Positions 23,543 to 45,313 of a stretch of DNA of 46,284 nucleotides are shown in pieces. Position numbers and translations under genes: made by a program. Source of the DNA: a virus; IMG/VR virus record IMGVR_UViG_3300032291_003030, positions 1-46,284 of that record. The stretch is one strand, 5' to 3'. How positions within the stretch are numbered: position 1 is the first letter of the stretch; each line of letters starts with the position of its first letter. The notes beneath the pieces were generated by a model. It did not search any database and was not told the DNA's origin. It worked only from the letters and a program-made list of their open reading frames with translations.

Positions 23543-24899
23543 TTTAGAGAGATATGGCTCATCATTCCAAATCAAAGTATTAGGAGCATTATTAACACAA
23601 CGACAATTCTTACTAAACATTTCAGATGCTTTAGAGAGTGAATATTTTAGTAATACAGCACATCAATGGATTGTTGATTTTATAATCAAATATTTCAGTG
23701 AATATCATACAATTCCATCATTAGAAACATTATCTATTGAAGTAAAAAAGATAGATAACGAAATATTACGTATTGCTTTAACTGAGGCGCTACGTGAGGC
23801 TTATAAAGCAGCAGATTCAAAAGACTTAGAATATGTTGAAACAGAATTTACAGCATTCTGTAGTAATCAACAAATGAAAAAAGCACTAATGACGTCTGTT
23901 GATTTACTTAATGTTGGAGATTTTGATGGTATTCGAAGATTAATCAATAATGCAATGAAAGCTGGTGAGGAAAAAAACATCGGTCATGAATATGAATTAG
24001 ATATTGAAACTCGCTATAGATTAAATGATAGAAATGCAATTCCCTTCCCATGGCCTATATTTAATGATTTAACACAAGGTGGTGTTGGTAAAGGTGATTT
24101 AGTATTAATGTTTGGTAATCCAGGTGGTGGTAAATCATGGGCTGTAATTGCAATGGGTGCATTCGCTGCAGCATTAGGTTATAACGTTATCCATTATACA
24201 TTAGAATTAGGTGAAGGATATGTAGGAAAACGATATGATGCTGTATTTTCAGGAATACCTGTAGATAAATTAGATGAAAATCGTCAAGCTGTTGAAGAAA
24301 TTATTAAACAAGTTAAGGGCAAAATTGTAATTAAAGAATATGCTCCAAAACGTGCATCTTTAGAAACAATAGAAGCACACATCCAACAATTAGAGAATCA
24401 AAACGAATTTAAACCTGATATTATCATTATTGACTATTTAGATTTATTACGTGGTAAATCTAGAAAAGAACGTAAAGATGAAATTGATGATGTTTACACT
24501 GATGCTAAAGGTTTAGCAAAAACATTAAATATTCCTATTGTATCTCCATCACAAGCAAATAGAACAGGTGCTAATAAAAATATTATTGAAGGTGATAATG
24601 CTGCAGGATCTTATGATAAAATAATGATTGGGGATATTATAATTTCAGTAGCTAGAAATAAAAAATCTAAAGTAAATGGGACGGGAATGTGGCATTTTAT
24701 GAAAAATAGATATGGTGCTGATGGTTTAACATTTAAATCCACTATTGATACATCTAATGGTAAAATTGTTATTGATTCTGAACCAGTAGATGATGATGAT
24801 GAAGAAGTTACACCAACTAAAGTTGGATATTCAAATTTTGATACTGATGATAGAGATATCCTAAAGAAAAAATTCTTTGAATTATCCAAAGAATATTAA
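23526..24899 (+). CDS. gp41: Replicative DNA helicase (T4 gp41/DnaB-like)
   Basis: The product is 457 residues (T4 gp41 is 475). A helical N-terminal domain contains FQIKVLGALLTQRQFLLNIS. The RecA-like motor has Walker A FGNPGGGKSW near residues 196-205, a HYTLELGEGYVGKRYDAVFS segment, Walker B IIIIDYLDLLRGKSRKERKD and the AGSYDKIMIGDIIISVARNK C-terminal sensor region. It ends in an acidic tail. It unwinds DNA ahead of the polymerase. The start is TTG with a good Shine-Dalgarno, unusual for this genome; no primase gene is in the window. Confidence 0.95.
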   Translation: MTTLNSLERYGSSFQIKVLGALLTQRQFLLNISDALESEYFSNTAHQWIVDFIIKYFSEYHTIPSLETLSIEVKKIDNEILRIALTEALREAYKAADSKDLEYVETEFTAFCSNQQMKKALMTSVDLLNVGDFDGIRRLINNAMKAGEEKNIGHEYELDIETRYRLNDRNAIPFPWPIFNDLTQGGVGKGDLVLMFGNPGGGKSWAVIAMGAFAAALGYNVIHYTLELGEGYVGKRYDAVFSGIPVDKLDENRQAVEEIIKQVKGKIVIKEYAPKRASLETIEAHIQQLENQNEFKPDIIIIDYLDLLRGKSRKERKDEIDDVYTDAKGLAKTLNIPIVSPSQANRTGANKNIIEGDNAAGSYDKIMIGDIIISVARNKKSKVNGTGMWHFMKNRYGADGLTFKSTIDTSNGKIVIDSEPVDDDDEEVTPTKVGYSNFDTDDRDILKKKFFELSKEY

Positions 24900-27257: not shown

Positions 27258-27704
27258 ATGAACATAGAAACAGATATCCCTAAATTTACTCCTTCAACAT
27301 ATAACAAATTTTATTGGTATCGTAGGTTTAAACCACGTACTCCACCATTTAAACACCGTCCCTTATTAGATAAAATAAAAAATGGTGATTATGATTATTC
27401 TGATTATCGTGTTCAAGCATTATATGAAATAGAATTATCCAAAGAAAAAGCAAATACATACCCTACATATGCTTATACTGAACGTGATGAAGCATTAAAA
27501 ATGGGTAGATTACGCCATAATAAATTAATGGAGGATTTCATGAAAGATGAATTTAATCTACTTAAAACCATTGAAAAAGAATTTTGTGATGAATTCTATA
27601 TTAATAAAGAGGATTTTACAAAATATTTAAATGATTGTGATGGTAGTCTAGAGGATTTATACCATACTATTAAAGAAAATACATTATATAAATTTACAAA
27701 ATGA
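27258..27704 (+). CDS. Hypothetical protein (148 aa)
   Basis: I take ATG 27258 rather than an in-frame TTG at 27243 because the TTG would overlap the -10 element. The product begins MNIETDIPKFTPSTYNKFYW and is basic and aromatic early (YRRFKPRTPPFKHRPL), then helical and acidic (MKDEFNLLKTIEKEFCDEFY). No known domain is visible. It overlaps the next gene by an ATGA junction. Confidence 0.72.
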   Translation: MNIETDIPKFTPSTYNKFYWYRRFKPRTPPFKHRPLLDKIKNGDYDYSDYRVQALYEIELSKEKANTYPTYAYTERDEALKMGRLRHNKLMEDFMKDEFNLLKTIEKEFCDEFYINKEDFTKYLNDCDGSLEDLYHTIKENTLYKFTK

Positions 27705-27862
27705 AAGACCCCTTAAAAGAATTAGAAGAACAATCAAAATCTCTTCAAGAACTTAAAGTTACTGAAGATAATCAACAAGATACTTTGAAATCTATAGAAA
27801 ATTTATTATATTCAATGGATGAAAAATTAGAATTAATATTTAAATCATTAATAGAAGAATAA
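27701..27862 (+). CDS. Small coiled-coil protein (53 aa)
   Basis: It starts inside the preceding stop codon (ATGA). The product MKDPLKELEEQSKSLQELKV continues as one long charged helix ending KLELIFKSLIEE. It is probably a short coiled coil. The gene ends one base before the next ATG, so the three genes 27258-28070 form a compact operon. Function unknown. Confidence 0.65.
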   Translation: MKDPLKELEEQSKSLQELKVTEDNQQDTLKSIENLLYSMDEKLELIFKSLIEE

Positions 27863-27863
27863 T

Positions 27864-28070
27864 ATGGAATATTTAGGTGAAATTTTGGGAATTGTTGCTA
27901 TAATATGCTTAGCATGTTTATTATTAGGTTTACCTCTAATGTTATTATGGAATTGGTTAATGCCTATATTATTTGGTATGCCATATATTACATTCTGGCA
28001 AGCAGTAGGATTAAATATCTTATCAACAATATTATTTAAATCAACATCAACAACAACTAATAAATCATAA
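27864..28070 (+). CDS. Small membrane protein with two transmembrane segments (68 aa)
   Basis: Residues ~4-30 (YLGEILGIVAIICLACLLLG) and ~34-60 (ITFWQAVGLNILSTILF) are hydrophobic, with WNWLMPILFGMPYI between them and a Ser/Thr-rich tail. The LWNWLMP-LFG-P-ITFWQA pattern resembles small predicted membrane proteins that I recall from Bacteroidetes genomes, so it may be host-derived. Function unknown. It is followed by queD after one base. Confidence 0.7.
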   Translation: MEYLGEILGIVAIICLACLLLGLPLMLLWNWLMPILFGMPYITFWQAVGLNILSTILFKSTSTTTNKS

Positions 28071-28071
28071 T

Positions 28072-28542
28072 ATGAGTAAATTTCAATCAACAAAAGTATT
28101 TGATGGATTCAGTTGCGTATTTCGTCAATGGCGAGCAGAAGGAACACACTGTCGTTTCTTACATGGTTATGCTTTATCTTTTAGAGTATGGTTTGAAGGA
28201 GAATTAGACGAACGTAATTGGGTTTGGGATTTTGGGCATGCTAAGCGTTCTAAATATATGATTGATGATATGAATCCTAAAGTATGGATGGATTATATGT
28301 TTGATCATACTACAATTATAGCGGAAGATGATCCAGGTTTAGGTGGATTTAAAACAATGAATGACTTAGGCATTATTCAGCTCAGAATCGTTCCGGCTGT
28401 TGGGGCTGAACAATTTGCAAAATATATATTTGATAAATTAACTCCATGGGTTGAAAGTGATTCAGAAGGTAGAGTTAAAATTGTAAGAGTAGAGGTAAGA
28501 GAACATGAAAAAAACACAGCTATATATGAAAATATCACATGA
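28072..28542 (+). CDS. queD: QueD-like 6-carboxy-tetrahydropterin synthase family protein
   Basis: The product resembles the PTPS/QueD fold: an N-terminal strand FDGFSCVFRQWRAEGTHCRF followed by LHGYALSFRVWFEG, WVWDFGHAKRSKYMID, the conserved MFDHTTIIAEDDP, and a C-terminal VRVEVREHEKNTAIYEN with the conserved Glu. The active-site Cys and the first His of LHG are kept, but the usual H-G-H reads H-G-Y and the first Zn His of the F-x-A-A-H motif is replaced. I believe a divergent subgroup looks like this. It should make CPH4, the queuosine/7-deazaguanine precursor. FolE, QueC and a TGT-like enzyme lie nearby. Confidence 0.82.
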   Translation: MSKFQSTKVFDGFSCVFRQWRAEGTHCRFLHGYALSFRVWFEGELDERNWVWDFGHAKRSKYMIDDMNPKVWMDYMFDHTTIIAEDDPGLGGFKTMNDLGIIQLRIVPAVGAEQFAKYIFDKLTPWVESDSEGRVKIVRVEVREHEKNTAIYENIT

Positions 28543-29308
28543 AGTACCACTACAATTACTCCCATGGAGTAAAACAATAAATGATTATGAGTATATTCTA
28601 CCTTATTTCTACTATCGTTCTCCAGAATATAAAGAATTTTATTTACAATGTAAACAGGAAGGACGTTTCTCCATTTTAGACAACGGTTTATTTGAGGGTG
28701 AAACATATACCACAGAGCAATTAATTGATTTAAATAACGAATTAAAACCCGATATATTCATAGTACCTGATGAATGGAATGACTTTCATAAAACATATAG
28801 TCATGCTAAAACATGGTCTGAAATATCTATTAATCCTGAAACTAAATTAATGGTAGTATTGCAGGGTGAAAAATTTGATGAAATTAGATTATTATATAAA
28901 TTCTGTTATGATTTAGGATATAGGCATTTTGCTCTTAATCACTCCTCATCATCATATTTAAAAGCATTCCCTCATAAAAATAAATTAATATCTAAGATGA
29001 TGGGCAGAATTCAGTTAGTAAATTTCATGTATGAATTATTTGATAGAAGTGATTCATATGTACATTTATTAGGTGCTACTTTACCACAAGAATTTATGTA
29101 TTATAAAGGATATAAATTTATAAAATCAGTAGATACATCAAATCCTATATTAGTGGGAGCAAAGAAAGAAACATATCCTATGTTTGGTTTATTAGATAAA
29201 CCTAAAGAAACAATGAAAGAATTCTTTGATAAAGATGTAATGCCAAATATTAATTATATAGATAATAATGTAAAGATGTTTAGAAACCTTGTAAATTTAA
29301 GCAAATAA
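28505..29308 (+). CDS. TGT/DpdA-like guanine transglycosylase (267 aa)
   Basis: The sequence has the order of motifs of the tRNA-guanine transglycosylase barrel in a short form: SILDNGLFEGETY (compare D-S-G-G-F-Q), DIFIVPDEWNDFH, KLMVVLQGEKFDE (compare I-V-Q-G), HLLGATLPQEF and KSVDTSNPI. Phages that insert 7-deazaguanines into DNA encode such TGT-like DpdA enzymes beside QueD, QueC and FolE, which is exactly this context. It overlaps queD by 38 bases. I infer base exchange in phage DNA rather than tRNA. It is shorter than bacterial TGT (~375) and lacks the zinc site. Confidence 0.68.
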   Translation: MKKTQLYMKISHEVPLQLLPWSKTINDYEYILPYFYYRSPEYKEFYLQCKQEGRFSILDNGLFEGETYTTEQLIDLNNELKPDIFIVPDEWNDFHKTYSHAKTWSEISINPETKLMVVLQGEKFDEIRLLYKFCYDLGYRHFALNHSSSSYLKAFPHKNKLISKMMGRIQLVNFMYELFDRSDSYVHLLGATLPQEFMYYKGYKFIKSVDTSNPILVGAKKETYPMFGLLDKPKETMKEFFDKDVMPNINYIDNNVKMFRNLVNLSK

Positions 29309-29309
29309 T

Positions 29310-29843
29310 ATGACATACGAAAATTTTTTAAAAGTAATACTCCATCAACAAAAGATGGATAGACAAATTAATGAAGCATATAAACTAAAGATTGATTTAA
29401 TAGAATTTGTAGATGGATATAATGAAATTATCTCTACATTAATTAAAGAAATATATGGTGAACAAGGATATGAATGGTATTCATGGTTCTGCTATGAAAA
29501 TGACTATGGAACCGGTACATTAACAGCAAACGAAATAGATGGAACTCCCATTTGTTACTCTCATGAAACATTATGGGAATATTTAGAAAAAAATCACTTA
29601 ATTATAAATAAAGAAAAAACAACAGTTATGAAAGAAACACAAGAAGAATTTATCTCCTTATATGATTATGTAGGACATAAAGATCAAGACAATAATGCTA
29701 AAAATTTATATATTTTTGCTATTAGTTGTGGAATTAAACCCGGAGAAAGACAAATTTCAAACCCTAAATACACAGGAATTGTAAGAACATATCCTAGATT
29801 AGTAATTGAACGTTTCTTCGAATTAACATCTTTAAATAAATAA
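29310..29843 (+). CDS. Two-part protein: unknown N-domain fused to a small repeated domain (177 aa)
   Basis: Residues 1-101 include GEQGYEWYSWFCYENDYGTG and EIDGTPICYSHETLWEYLEK, a pattern seen in small phage proteins. From M107 onward the sequence (MKETQEEFISLYDYVGHKD) is a close copy of the separate gene at 29856. The codon at 29613 is GAA where the equivalent position before the second copy is TAA, so loss of a stop codon appears to have fused two genes. M107 (29628) keeps the same pre-ATG sequence as the second copy and could also start a 71-residue product. Function unknown. Confidence 0.78.
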   Translation: MTYENFLKVILHQQKMDRQINEAYKLKIDLIEFVDGYNEIISTLIKEIYGEQGYEWYSWFCYENDYGTGTLTANEIDGTPICYSHETLWEYLEKNHLIINKEKTTVMKETQEEFISLYDYVGHKDQDNNAKNLYIFAISCGIKPGERQISNPKYTGIVRTYPRLVIERFFELTSLNK

Positions 29844-29855
29844 AAAACAACAGTT

Positions 29856-30071
29856 ATGAAAGAAACACAAGAAGAATTTATCTCCCTATATGATTATGTA
29901 GGACATAAAGATGAAAAAGGTATTGGAAAAAATTTATACAATTTTGCTATTAGTTGTGGAGTTAAACCATTATCAAGACAAATTAATAACCCAAAATATG
30001 AAGGAAAAGTAATGACATATCCTAGATCAGTAATTAAAAGTTTCTTTACCTCATCATCTTTAAATAAATAA
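29856..30071 (+). CDS. Stand-alone copy of the repeated small domain (71 aa)
   Basis: The product MKETQEEFISLYDYVGHKDE with GVKPLSRQINNPKYEGKV and a C-terminal TYPRSVIKSFF is a paralogue of the C-terminal part of the preceding gene. The duplication includes the ~15 bases before the ATG (AAAAACAACAGTT). No known function. It lies four bases before queC, inside the 7-deazaguanine cluster, so a link with that pathway is conceivable but unsupported. Confidence 0.78.
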   Translation: MKETQEEFISLYDYVGHKDEKGIGKNLYNFAISCGVKPLSRQINNPKYEGKVMTYPRSVIKSFFTSSSLNK

Positions 30072-30075
30072 AGTT

Positions 30076-30966
30076 ATGCAAAAACATGTTGTAGTTTCAC
30101 TTTCAGGTGGAATGGACTCCAGTACATTATTGTTACGTTGTTTAAAAGAGTACGATACAGTAACAGCAATTTCATTTGATTACGGTCAAAAACACAGAGT
30201 AGAGCTAGAAAGAGCTCAATCATTAGTAGATTATTTAAATGGTGCTTATGATTTGGATTTTGAACATGGTATATTAGCTGAAGATATACCATACTCAAAA
30301 ATCACTTATCGTCAAATCCAATTAAACGGATTATCCGATCTACTAGATTCAGCATTAGTAACAGGTGGTGAAGATGTACCTGAAGGACATTATGCTGAGG
30401 ATAATATGAAAGCAACTGTAGTACCTAATCGTAATAAGATATTTGCTTCAATCACACAAGCAGTAGCATTATCAGTTGCTCAAAGAACTGGAGAAACATG
30501 CGATATTGCTTTAGGTATTCATGCTGGAGATTTTTCAGTTTATCCTGATTGTCGTCAAGAATTTAGAGATGCTGATGATGCAGCGTTTAGATTAGGAAAT
30601 TGGGGTTCTGAAATGGTAGGATACTTTACTCCTTATTTACATGGAAATAAACATACTATTCTTCAAGATGGAGAAATATTATGTGATGAATTAGGTTTAA
30701 ACTTTAATGAAGTATATAGTAGAACTAATACATCATATAAACCAATTAAAATTAAAACAGGAATAACTCCATTATTTGGAGGTGGAGGTATCCCAACATA
30801 TGAATGGTTTTCAGATTATAAATCAGCATCATCTGTAGAACGTATTGAAGCATTTATTAAATTAGGACGTAAAGATCCTGTAAGTTATGCTGATAAGAAT
30901 GGTCCTGTAGATTGGGAAGTTGCTAAAACTCATGTTGAAAAAATATTGTTGGATCATCAGAATTAA
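30076..30966 (+). CDS. queC: QueC-like 7-cyano-7-deazaguanine synthase family protein
   Basis: The N-terminal PP-loop VVVSLSGGMDSSTLLL and a downstream TVVPNRNKIFASITQA plus SVYPDCRQEFRDADDAAF block match QueC (ATP-dependent conversion of CDG, through its amide ADG, to preQ0). The C-terminal zinc site of QueC (SCY plus CGxCxxC) is replaced: here the region reads NTSYKPIKIKTGITPLFGGG with no cysteines, then KLGRKDPVSYADK. This may alter the reaction, for example stopping at the amide. It is 296 residues, longer than typical (~230). FolE follows after 17 bases. Confidence 0.85.
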   Translation: MQKHVVVSLSGGMDSSTLLLRCLKEYDTVTAISFDYGQKHRVELERAQSLVDYLNGAYDLDFEHGILAEDIPYSKITYRQIQLNGLSDLLDSALVTGGEDVPEGHYAEDNMKATVVPNRNKIFASITQAVALSVAQRTGETCDIALGIHAGDFSVYPDCRQEFRDADDAAFRLGNWGSEMVGYFTPYLHGNKHTILQDGEILCDELGLNFNEVYSRTNTSYKPIKIKTGITPLFGGGGIPTYEWFSDYKSASSVERIEAFIKLGRKDPVSYADKNGPVDWEVAKTHVEKILLDHQN

Positions 30967-30977
30967 ATCATTATATT
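30954..30977 (+). promoter_or_regulatory. Middle-promoter-like element upstream of folE
   Basis: TCATCA (30954-30959), 12 bases, TATATT (30972-30977), overlapping the end of queC. The folE ATG (30984) begins exactly 7 bases after the hexamer. Confidence 0.5.
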
Positions 30978-30983
30978 TAAAAT

Positions 30984-31622
30984 ATGAAAGAATTATTAAA
31001 AAAATCAAACGGTAATATTCCCCGTACATCCAAAGAAATTGAACAAATGATCACAGATGCTGCAGAAGCATATGCTAATTTCTTAACAGCAGTTGGTTTT
31101 GATTATACAGCAGATAGACAAACAGTAGATACTCCTCTTCGTGTAGCTAAAGCATGGCTTAAAGATTTAATTGTAGGATCTATTACACCTGAACCAAATA
31201 TTACAGTATTTCCTAATGATGAAGGATATGATGGTTTAGTAATACAAAGCGGTATTCCAATCGTTAGTATGTGTGCGCACCATAACCTGGCCTTCACTGG
31301 ATATGCTACTGTAGCGTATGTACCTGCGGAAAACGTCATAGGTTTATCCAAACTGAACCGCATTGTCGAATGGTTTGCTCGTAGACCACAAATGCAAGAA
31401 TCATTAACACAACAAATCCATGATTATATTTCTGATAAAATGGATTGTGAATCAGTAGCAGTTAGTATTGCATGTAAACACACATGTTGTTCACATAGAG
31501 GTATTAAACATCCATCAGTAATGACTACTAATAAGTTTAGTGGAGTATTTCTTGAAAAAGATAATCTTGTTAGAGAAGAATTAATGTCTGCTATTGCTAT
31601 GAATGGAATTCCTATGAACTAA
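30984..31622 (+). CDS. folE: GTP cyclohydrolase I (FolE-like)
   Basis: The 212-residue product matches FolE throughout: TPLRVAKAWLKDLI, IPIVSMCAHHNLAFTGYATV (zinc Cys97, His99/His100; usual CEHH reads CAHH), VIGLSKLNRIVEWFARRPQM, and KHTCCSHRGIKHPSVMTTN with the second zinc Cys. It makes dihydroneopterin triphosphate from GTP, the first step to CPH4 and 7-deazaguanines. The Glu-to-Ala change beside the zinc Cys is unusual. Its own promoter-like element precedes it. In this context it feeds queD, not folate synthesis (inference). Confidence 0.93.
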   Translation: MKELLKKSNGNIPRTSKEIEQMITDAAEAYANFLTAVGFDYTADRQTVDTPLRVAKAWLKDLIVGSITPEPNITVFPNDEGYDGLVIQSGIPIVSMCAHHNLAFTGYATVAYVPAENVIGLSKLNRIVEWFARRPQMQESLTQQIHDYISDKMDCESVAVSIACKHTCCSHRGIKHPSVMTTNKFSGVFLEKDNLVREELMSAIAMNGIPMN

Positions 31623-43687: not shown

Positions 43688-45313
43688 ATGAGTAAAATTA
43701 TTAGTTTCGATAGAGAAGCAAAAGAAAAATTACAATCAGGTATTGATAAAGTAAATAAAGCAGTATCAGTAACTTTTGGACCTTATGGAAGAAATGTCCT
43801 AATAGAGGATTCAGTTAATGGAGTAAAAAGTACAAAAGATGGTGTAACGGTTGCTAAATCTATTACATTAGAAGACCCCATTGAAAATATGGCTGCTACG
43901 ATTATTAAACAAGCAGCATCTAAAACAGTGGATGCAGCAGGTGATGGTACAACTACTTCAACAGTATTAGCTCACGCTATTGCTTCTGGAGCATTAAGTG
44001 CTACATCTTATCCATCAACAAATGCTACTCAGGTAAAACGTGGTATTGAGGCTGCTGTAAAAGAAGTGGTTGATGAATTAAAAAAGATATCTATTGATAT
44101 TACTGATGAAAAGCAAATTAAACAAATTGCTACATTATCAGCAAATGGAGATGAAGAAATTGGAAATCTAGTTACCGAAGCATTAGATAGAGTAGGAAGA
44201 GATGGTGTAGTTACAGTAGAGGAATCTCGTACTGGAGAAACATCATTAGAAGTAGTTGAAGGTTTACAATTTGATAGGGGATATAAATCTCCATATTTTG
44301 TAACTGACAATAGCACGATGCAAGCCGTATTAAATGACGCTTTAATATTGTTATTCAACGGTAGAATCAGTGCTGTTAAGGACTTATTGCCTCTATTAGA
44401 ATCCGTTTCTCAACAAAATAAATCACTATTGATTGTTGCTGAGGAATTAGATGGAGAAGCATTAGCTACTCTAATTGTAAATAAAATGCGTGGATCACTT
44501 AAAGTAGCTGCTGTAAAAGCACCTGATTTTGGAGAACGCAGATTACATATTCTAGAGGATATGGCAACTTTAACTGGAGGTCAAGTTGTATCAACTGATA
44601 AAGGTATGAAGTTGGATAAATTCAATACAGATTGGTTCGGTAATGCACGTGTTATAACTGTAGGTAAAGAAACTACTACAATTGTTGATGGTAAAGGAGA
44701 TGCAGATAAAATTGAGACGCGTATTCTAGATTTAAAACAACAATTAGATAATTCAAAATCTCCATATGAAGTTGAAAAGTTACAAGAACGTTTAGCTAAA
44801 ATGGTAGGTGGAGTTGCAATTATTAATGTTGGTGGTGGTACTGAAATTGAAATGAAAGAGAAGAAAGATCGTTTAGACGATGCTTTACAAGCTACTAAAG
44901 CTGCTCTTGAAGAAGGTATTCTACCTGGTGCTGGTATTGCATTATTACATGCTAGAAAATCTATTAATTTAAAAGGTGAAAATGATAAAGTAAAAGGTGC
45001 ACAAATTGTATTCCAAGCTTGTGCTACTCCATTTAAACAAATTTTAAATAATGCTGGAGAAGATCCTCAAGAATGGTGGGATAAAATTTACAATAATCAT
45101 TTCTCTAATATGGTACCAGAATTATCAACTGGAGAAGTAACAGATGCTTTCAAATCAGGTATTATTGATCCTACTAAAGTAGTTAGATGTGCATTAGAGA
45201 ATGCAGCAGCGGCCGCAGTAACACTATTAATGACTGAATGTGTAATCTATGATAAACCTGAAGAAAAAAAATCAGGTGGTAATGATGTAGATATGTCACA
45301 ATTTGGAATGTAA
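43688..45313 (+). CDS. groEL: Chaperonin GroEL (541 aa)
   Basis: Full-length chaperonin: SVTFGPYGRNVLIEDS, GVTVAKSITLEDPIENMAA, the ATP-site VDAAGDGTTTSTVLAHAI (GDGTTT 85-90), APDFGERRLHILEDMATLTG in the apical domain, KMVGGVAIINVGGGTEIEM, EGILPGAGIALLHAR, and a C-terminal GNDVDMSQFGM (the flexible GGM-type tail is short). Phages carrying both GroES and GroEL are uncommon. It is followed by a terminator. It probably folds large amounts of capsid and tail proteins. Confidence 0.96.
   Translation: MSKIISFDREAKEKLQSGIDKVNKAVSVTFGPYGRNVLIEDSVNGVKSTKDGVTVAKSITLEDPIENMAATIIKQAASKTVDAAGDGTTTSTVLAHAIASGALSATSYPSTNATQVKRGIEAAVKEVVDELKKISIDITDEKQIKQIATLSANGDEEIGNLVTEALDRVGRDGVVTVEESRTGETSLEVVEGLQFDRGYKSPYFVTDNSTMQAVLNDALILLFNGRISAVKDLLPLLESVSQQNKSLLIVAEELDGEALATLIVNKMRGSLKVAAVKAPDFGERRLHILEDMATLTGGQVVSTDKGMKLDKFNTDWFGNARVITVGKETTTIVDGKGDADKIETRILDLKQQLDNSKSPYEVEKLQERLAKMVGGVAIINVGGGTEIEMKEKKDRLDDALQATKAALEEGILPGAGIALLHARKSINLKGENDKVKGAQIVFQACATPFKQILNNAGEDPQEWWDKIYNNHFSNMVPELSTGEVTDAFKSGIIDPTKVVRCALENAAAAAVTLLMTECVIYDKPEEKKSGGNDVDMSQFGM

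Follow-up and report, generated by a model that had tools for sequence, protein, structure and literature searches.

A probable phage-encoded 7-deazaguanine DNA modification cassette with a predicted DpdA3-like transglycosylase and a QueC without the zinc motif

Phages that carry DpdA together with preQ0-pathway genes contain 7-deazaguanines in their DNA that block restriction (PMC6884629), and in firehammervirus DNA dG is completely replaced (PMC10273834). The Enterobacteria phage 9g / CAjan DpdA systems pair precursor genes with a DNA transglycosylase, as does Campylobacter firehammervirus CP220, which encodes QueD, QueC and FolE in addition to its transglycosylase. We take the family to which the latter enzyme (CP220 gp056) belongs to be DpdA3, the subfamily associated with complete dG replacement. 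CP220-type phages carry 2'-deoxy-7-amido-7-deazaguanosine (dADG), as reported by Crippen et al. 2019, a study cited in PMC6884629. The locus described here lies in a 46,284-bp stretch of viral DNA (GC 28.8%), which is the whole of IMG/VR virus record IMGVR_UViG_3300032291_003030 and is referred to below as the window; it also holds GroEL and genes for a contractile tail and T4-type replication. The locus is of a known kind, and what is new is a zinc-free QueC, a QueE with CX3CX35C cysteines, a small domain by queC and an exchange of folE between close relatives.

A sequence-only reading of this DNA had placed a QueD, a TGT-like protein, a QueC and a FolE gene at 28072-31622. All four are located there on the + strand, and Pfam and PHROGs both strongly support the family assignments of QueD, QueC and FolE. 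The first gene, queD (28072..28542), encodes a 6-carboxytetrahydropterin synthase of the PTPS family, in a phage subtype with the motif THCxFLHGY (Pfam QueD/PTPS, E 6e-16; PHROGs QueD-like phrog_2389, 7e-41). It is followed by dpdA (28505..29308, probable start 28526), a predicted DNA guanine transglycosylase gene of the CP220/immuto type; by queC (30076..30966), predicted to encode an ATP-dependent synthase converting CDG to ADG/preQ0 (Pfam PF06508, 1.7e-36; PHROGs QueC-like, 1.4e-38); and by folE (30984..31622), encoding a GTP cyclohydrolase I (Pfam PF01227, 2.7e-47; PHROGs GTP cyclohydrolase, 1e-58) in which the zinc ligands at the CAHH and C168/C169 positions are kept. Two more ORFs (29310-29843 and 29856-30071), which had gone unmentioned, lie inside the same interval.

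Comparison with known systems reveals likeness to several phages. CP220 has a full-length DpdA homolog (35%, 1e-26); in contrast to the clustered window genes, its own are scattered, and its QueC has the zinc cysteines that the window QueC lacks. These cysteines are absent as well from the QueC of Flavobacterium phage vB_FspM_immuto (Immutovirus), which is 74% identical to that of the window, and immuto further shares a QueD (68%), a DpdA annotated as such (33%), a small domain 5' of QueC and GroEL. Points of difference are that immuto encodes QueF, that some 15 kb separate its QueC from its DpdA, and that its QueE is of another type. Kinship to immuto, and only this, suggests Flavobacterium as the host. 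The QueD of Cellulophaga phage phi13:1 is 64% identical and is adjoined by QueE and FolE; beside queD, queE and folE lies gp036 (L223 11294-12073), which is annotated only as hypothetical and matches the DpdA profile (1.5e-17 at nominal database size), whereas no QueC is annotated within the retrieved stretch. The 9g system shares a DSGAF-like site but has a DpdA of 317 aa that gives no significant full-length match to the window DpdA family, and it uses a Gat-QueC.

The TGT-like gene matched no Pfam or NCBIfam family and only an unnamed PHROG. The experimentally validated 9g DpdA is itself without a Pfam TGT match, so the missing Pfam match is no objection to the window DpdA. A tblastn search of annotated phages returned CP220 and its relatives as full-length matches at 34-36% identity and about 1e-26 (CP220: 35% over 99%), together with a full-length immuto match annotated 'DNA guanine transglycosylase' (33%, 1e-34). 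An AlphaFold2 model generated from a 48-sequence alignment of related viral loci reached a mean pLDDT of 93.5, and among PDB structures Foldseek matched it best to TGT (from 2.2e-6) and to DpdA 7ui4, a DNA preQ0 insertase (4.9e-6). Of the 30 highest-ranking PDB entries, 29 are TGT or DpdA 7ui4 and one is PdxJ. Inspection of the alignment shows no variation in 48/48 sequences at Asp59 (codon 28679-28681), Asp210 (29132-29134), Gln120 or the His187-Gly190 motif. Global hhalign against 9g DpdA and TGT was uninformative and the alignment profile gave chance matches only among PDB sequences, leaving local hhalign and the fold comparison as the informative tests. Two local matches, both weak, aligned D59-N-G-L-F with the DSGAF motif of 9g DpdA (E 0.064) and VLQG with IIQG of E. 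coli TGT (E 0.007). The register of Asp59 thus follows a weak local profile match, and Asp210, assigned by eye against 9g DpdA, is a candidate catalytic residue.

The homologs in CP220 and immuto, the modelled TGT/DpdA fold and the two invariant putative catalytic Asp agree with the TGT-like/DpdA call made earlier, and on the model the assignment to the TGT/DpdA superfamily holds. Within that superfamily, sequence similarity would place the window protein with the CP220-type DNA transglycosylase. Its relatives start at 'M(K)xSHE', which makes 28526 (Met8) a more likely start for dpdA than 28505. Viral contigs hold at least 575 stretches that code for a DpdA of the window type; a scan of bacterial genomes found it only in ten MAG contigs, which are probably phage contigs in bins.

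QueC was compared across the window and 73 relatives. The SGGxDS, VPxRN and YPDC motifs are each present in 74/74 proteins and YxQxHxxE in 73/74, whereas the C(x)8CxxCxxC-type zinc motif occurs in 0/74 of these clade QueCs and is kept in all seven comparators (CP220, CC_R7, a rosebushvirus, Finch, an Acinetobacter phage, HCTV-16 and the 9g Gat-QueC). The zinc motif is among the signature motifs of canonical QueC (PF06508 cluster 1), and Tyr189 of E. coli QueC, within the zinc region, is essential (PMC13329287). By alignment, Tyr221 of the window protein, in a TSYKP stretch, corresponds to this residue. Because the window QueC is without the zinc motif of the canonical enzyme, its activity or product could differ. 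The zinc-free protein would provide a direct test of the zinc need for QueC activity, as it seems to retain the rest of the known catalytic motifs and, with them, the essential tyrosine position. QueD of this clade departs from the classical PTPS sequence too: Tyr replaces the second His of HGH (HGY), and in the window protein, by alignment, the first classical zinc position is not occupied by His. With related QueD proteins in 105 phage records, the HGY feature is unlikely to be peculiar to this clade.

Directly 5' of queC lies an ORF on the + strand (29856..30071) for a small conserved domain of 71 aa ('SLYDYLGxAAG...NPKYxG...'). The 177-aa ORF upstream of it (29310..29843, + strand) consists of an N-terminal part of ~100 aa followed by a C-terminal copy of the same domain. 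A direct repeat with 84% DNA identity (29605-29844 and 29833-30072) duplicates the small domain (about 65-70 aa), and its two copies, 29628-29840, fused to the upstream ORF, and 29856-30068, are 73% identical in amino acids. Of 15 relatives, 14 have a single copy of the domain. It sits in or beside the module in 13/14, and it usually overlaps queC or ends within ~60 bp upstream. In immuto and in relative G006, where dpdA is 9-16 kb distant, the domain is still close to queC. A model of its fold (pLDDT 78.6) found no match in the PDB. In 20 loci, one from a 173-kb record, a zinc-free QueC occurs without the small domain, from which it follows that the domain is not essential to the cassette. 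The same loci weaken the idea that it compensates for the zinc loss of QueC.

Across 80 related loci the usual gene order is QueD, DpdA, small domain, QueC, QueE, FolE. In 14/14 relatives, whose records measure 43-174 kb, a span of 20 kb takes in QueD, DpdA, QueC, QueE and FolE, the FolE of one being truncated at the border of the stretch retrieved; DpdA is present in 15/15 QueE-bearing records. The relatives come from pattern-seeded scans, so these counts are lower bounds, and as the loci were chosen for their DpdA or QueE, co-occurrence is overestimated. Co-location of the genes in most of the 80 loci and in all 14 relatives argues that the cassette is not due to chance. In the window and in its relative G002, no QueE stands between QueC and FolE, an arrangement that looks derived.

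The sequence-only reading had also reported QueE missing from the window, and neither the Pfam Radical_SAM HMM nor a direct protein search detects one in these 46 kb; none is found in G001, a record 99.98% identical to the window. The first 37.7 kb of G002 (113,980 bp) match window positions 5182-46284; DNA identity is 89-96% for the most part, falling to 74% and 82% in two blocks, and the match is interrupted by gaps. This record carries a 298-aa QueE at 73039-73935 (L013 13039-13935), ~35 kb past its match to the end of the window. The Radical_SAM search was blank in four relatives as well, a result that proved a false negative for G002, where tblastn with a phage QueE found the gene. Cluster cysteines of the form CX3CX35C, in an N-terminal QGEG context, are present in 80/80 related loci (L021-L100), and this unusual spacing is probably why the Radical_SAM model misses the QueE of this clade. 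The PDB matches of this QueE are weak but include solved QueE structures. Judged from their sequences, QueC and QueE thus appear to be two enzymes with metal-binding sites unlike the textbook versions. Two QueE types recur in the clade; in relative G004 a QueE start lies directly 3' of QueD and is cut by the contig end. Clade QueE is encoded in 161 stretches of viral contigs, many of them in records of 155-174 kb. The full genome of the window phage is probably 150-180 kb, the length of the long relatives, of which the window represents 46 kb; G001 is likewise far shorter. Given a QueE beyond the span of the window in G002 and one close to the other cassette genes in 14/14 other relatives, the gap in the window is most likely a fragment effect. 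Of the two sources that had been proposed for QueE, elsewhere in the genome or the host, the former is favored by the G002 gene and by the placement of QueE inside the cassette in other relatives, and the host option has become the less favored one. The completeness of the pathway in the window phage is accordingly read from its relative.

Taken together, homology, fold and synteny support the pathway proposed earlier, in which FolE and QueD lead to CPH4, QueC acts on CDG and a TGT-like enzyme inserts the base. With high confidence, we consider the locus to hold most of a phage-encoded cassette for 7-deazaguanine modification of DNA, with DpdA3-like insertion, a QueE encoded outside the fragment and a product that is likely dADG, otherwise dPreQ0. 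FolE would convert GTP to dihydroneopterin triphosphate, from which QueD would form CPH4; QueE, encoded beyond the window, would yield CDG, and QueC would use ATP and ammonia to turn CDG into ADG or possibly preQ0. The DpdA3-like enzyme would then put the free base in place of existing guanines in the phage DNA, with Asp210 as putative nucleophile and Asp59 as putative general base. Possibly all dG would be replaced, and the modified DNA would resist host nucleases. Residue roles, base identity, extent of replacement and protective function are those we infer from the comparisons above. More tentatively, the window may belong to an immuto-related clade that combines the zinc-free QueC and a split-cysteine (35-residue) QueE with the small domain as a partner of QueC and a DpdA3-type enzyme replacing all dG. 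If confirmed, (near-)complete guanine replacement would reach beyond Campylobacter phages into a widespread environmental virus group, with consequences for how standard methods handle such viral DNA.

Other explanations of the same genes were weighed against this one. The phage could truly be without QueE and boost only the flux through FolE, QueD and QueC, with CDG supplied by the queuosine pathway of the host before DpdA insertion. Host participation has been discussed for phages with incomplete sets (PMC6884629), and the lack of QueE in both the window and G001 fits it; yet the QueE gene of so close a relative as G002, the 161 QueE-encoding stretches and the shortness of both records relative to 150-180 kb make such dependence improbable. 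Still less credible is a role in tRNA queuosine, whereby the genes would raise precursor levels and improve translation through a TGT-like enzyme acting on tRNA. FolE, QueD and QueC have been so interpreted in some phages that lack DpdA (PMC6884629), but the window protein has only 267 aa and is without the CxCxxC zinc subdomain present in E. coli TGT, its closest likeness is to phage proteins linked to DNA modification, and no tRNA gene occurs in the window. That the QueC-like protein is a QatC/Cap9-like protein modifier and no base synthase is the least plausible of these readings. PF06508 does include such members (PMC13329287) and the canonical zinc motif is missing; against this, the protein keeps SGGxDS, YxQxHxxE, VPxRN and YPDC, the last three of which are reported absent from QatC (PMC13329287), and in relatives queC sits with queD, queE and folE, a hallmark of canonical QueC neighborhoods.

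The identity of the product is a closer matter. There is an appreciable, if minority, chance that it is preQ0 (dPreQ0 in DNA) in place of ADG, or some other derivative, completed by an enzyme whose gene lies elsewhere in the genome. QueC can perform both steps, several phages with the FolE/QueD/QueE/QueC/DpdA set make dPreQ0 (PMC6884629), and immuto adds QueF. In contrast, among the DpdA homologs for which a product is reported, the closest are those of CP220-type phages, and that product is dADG. QueF exceeded the family cut-off only in immuto and in 0/15 relatives, which points to ADG or preQ0, not preQ1. Counting against the modification cassette itself are the mere 35% identity of its DpdA to that of CP220 and the weakness of the local profile matches to classical TGT/DpdA (E 0.064 and E 0.007).

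Inspection of the alignment between the window and G002 indicates an exchange at folE. The two share 95% identity in DpdA and 91% in the dCTP deaminase-like protein encoded downstream, compared with 42% for FolE, although folE (window 30984-31622; G002 27280-28008) occupies the same place among neighbors that are 78-95% identical. DNA similarity breaks at the folE edges, and both FolE types recur throughout the clade in the same position. Separately, G002 carries between queD and dpdA an inserted ORF of 216 aa (24135-24785; L011 4135-4785) that has the appearance of a homing-endonuclease-like insertion. At the left end of the window, two tail-fiber genes have in common a repeat that is 91% identical (71-333 and 1637-1899), and toward the right end, at 43688-45313, lies the phage GroEL (phrog_5725, 1e-150), which is found together with GroES in immuto.
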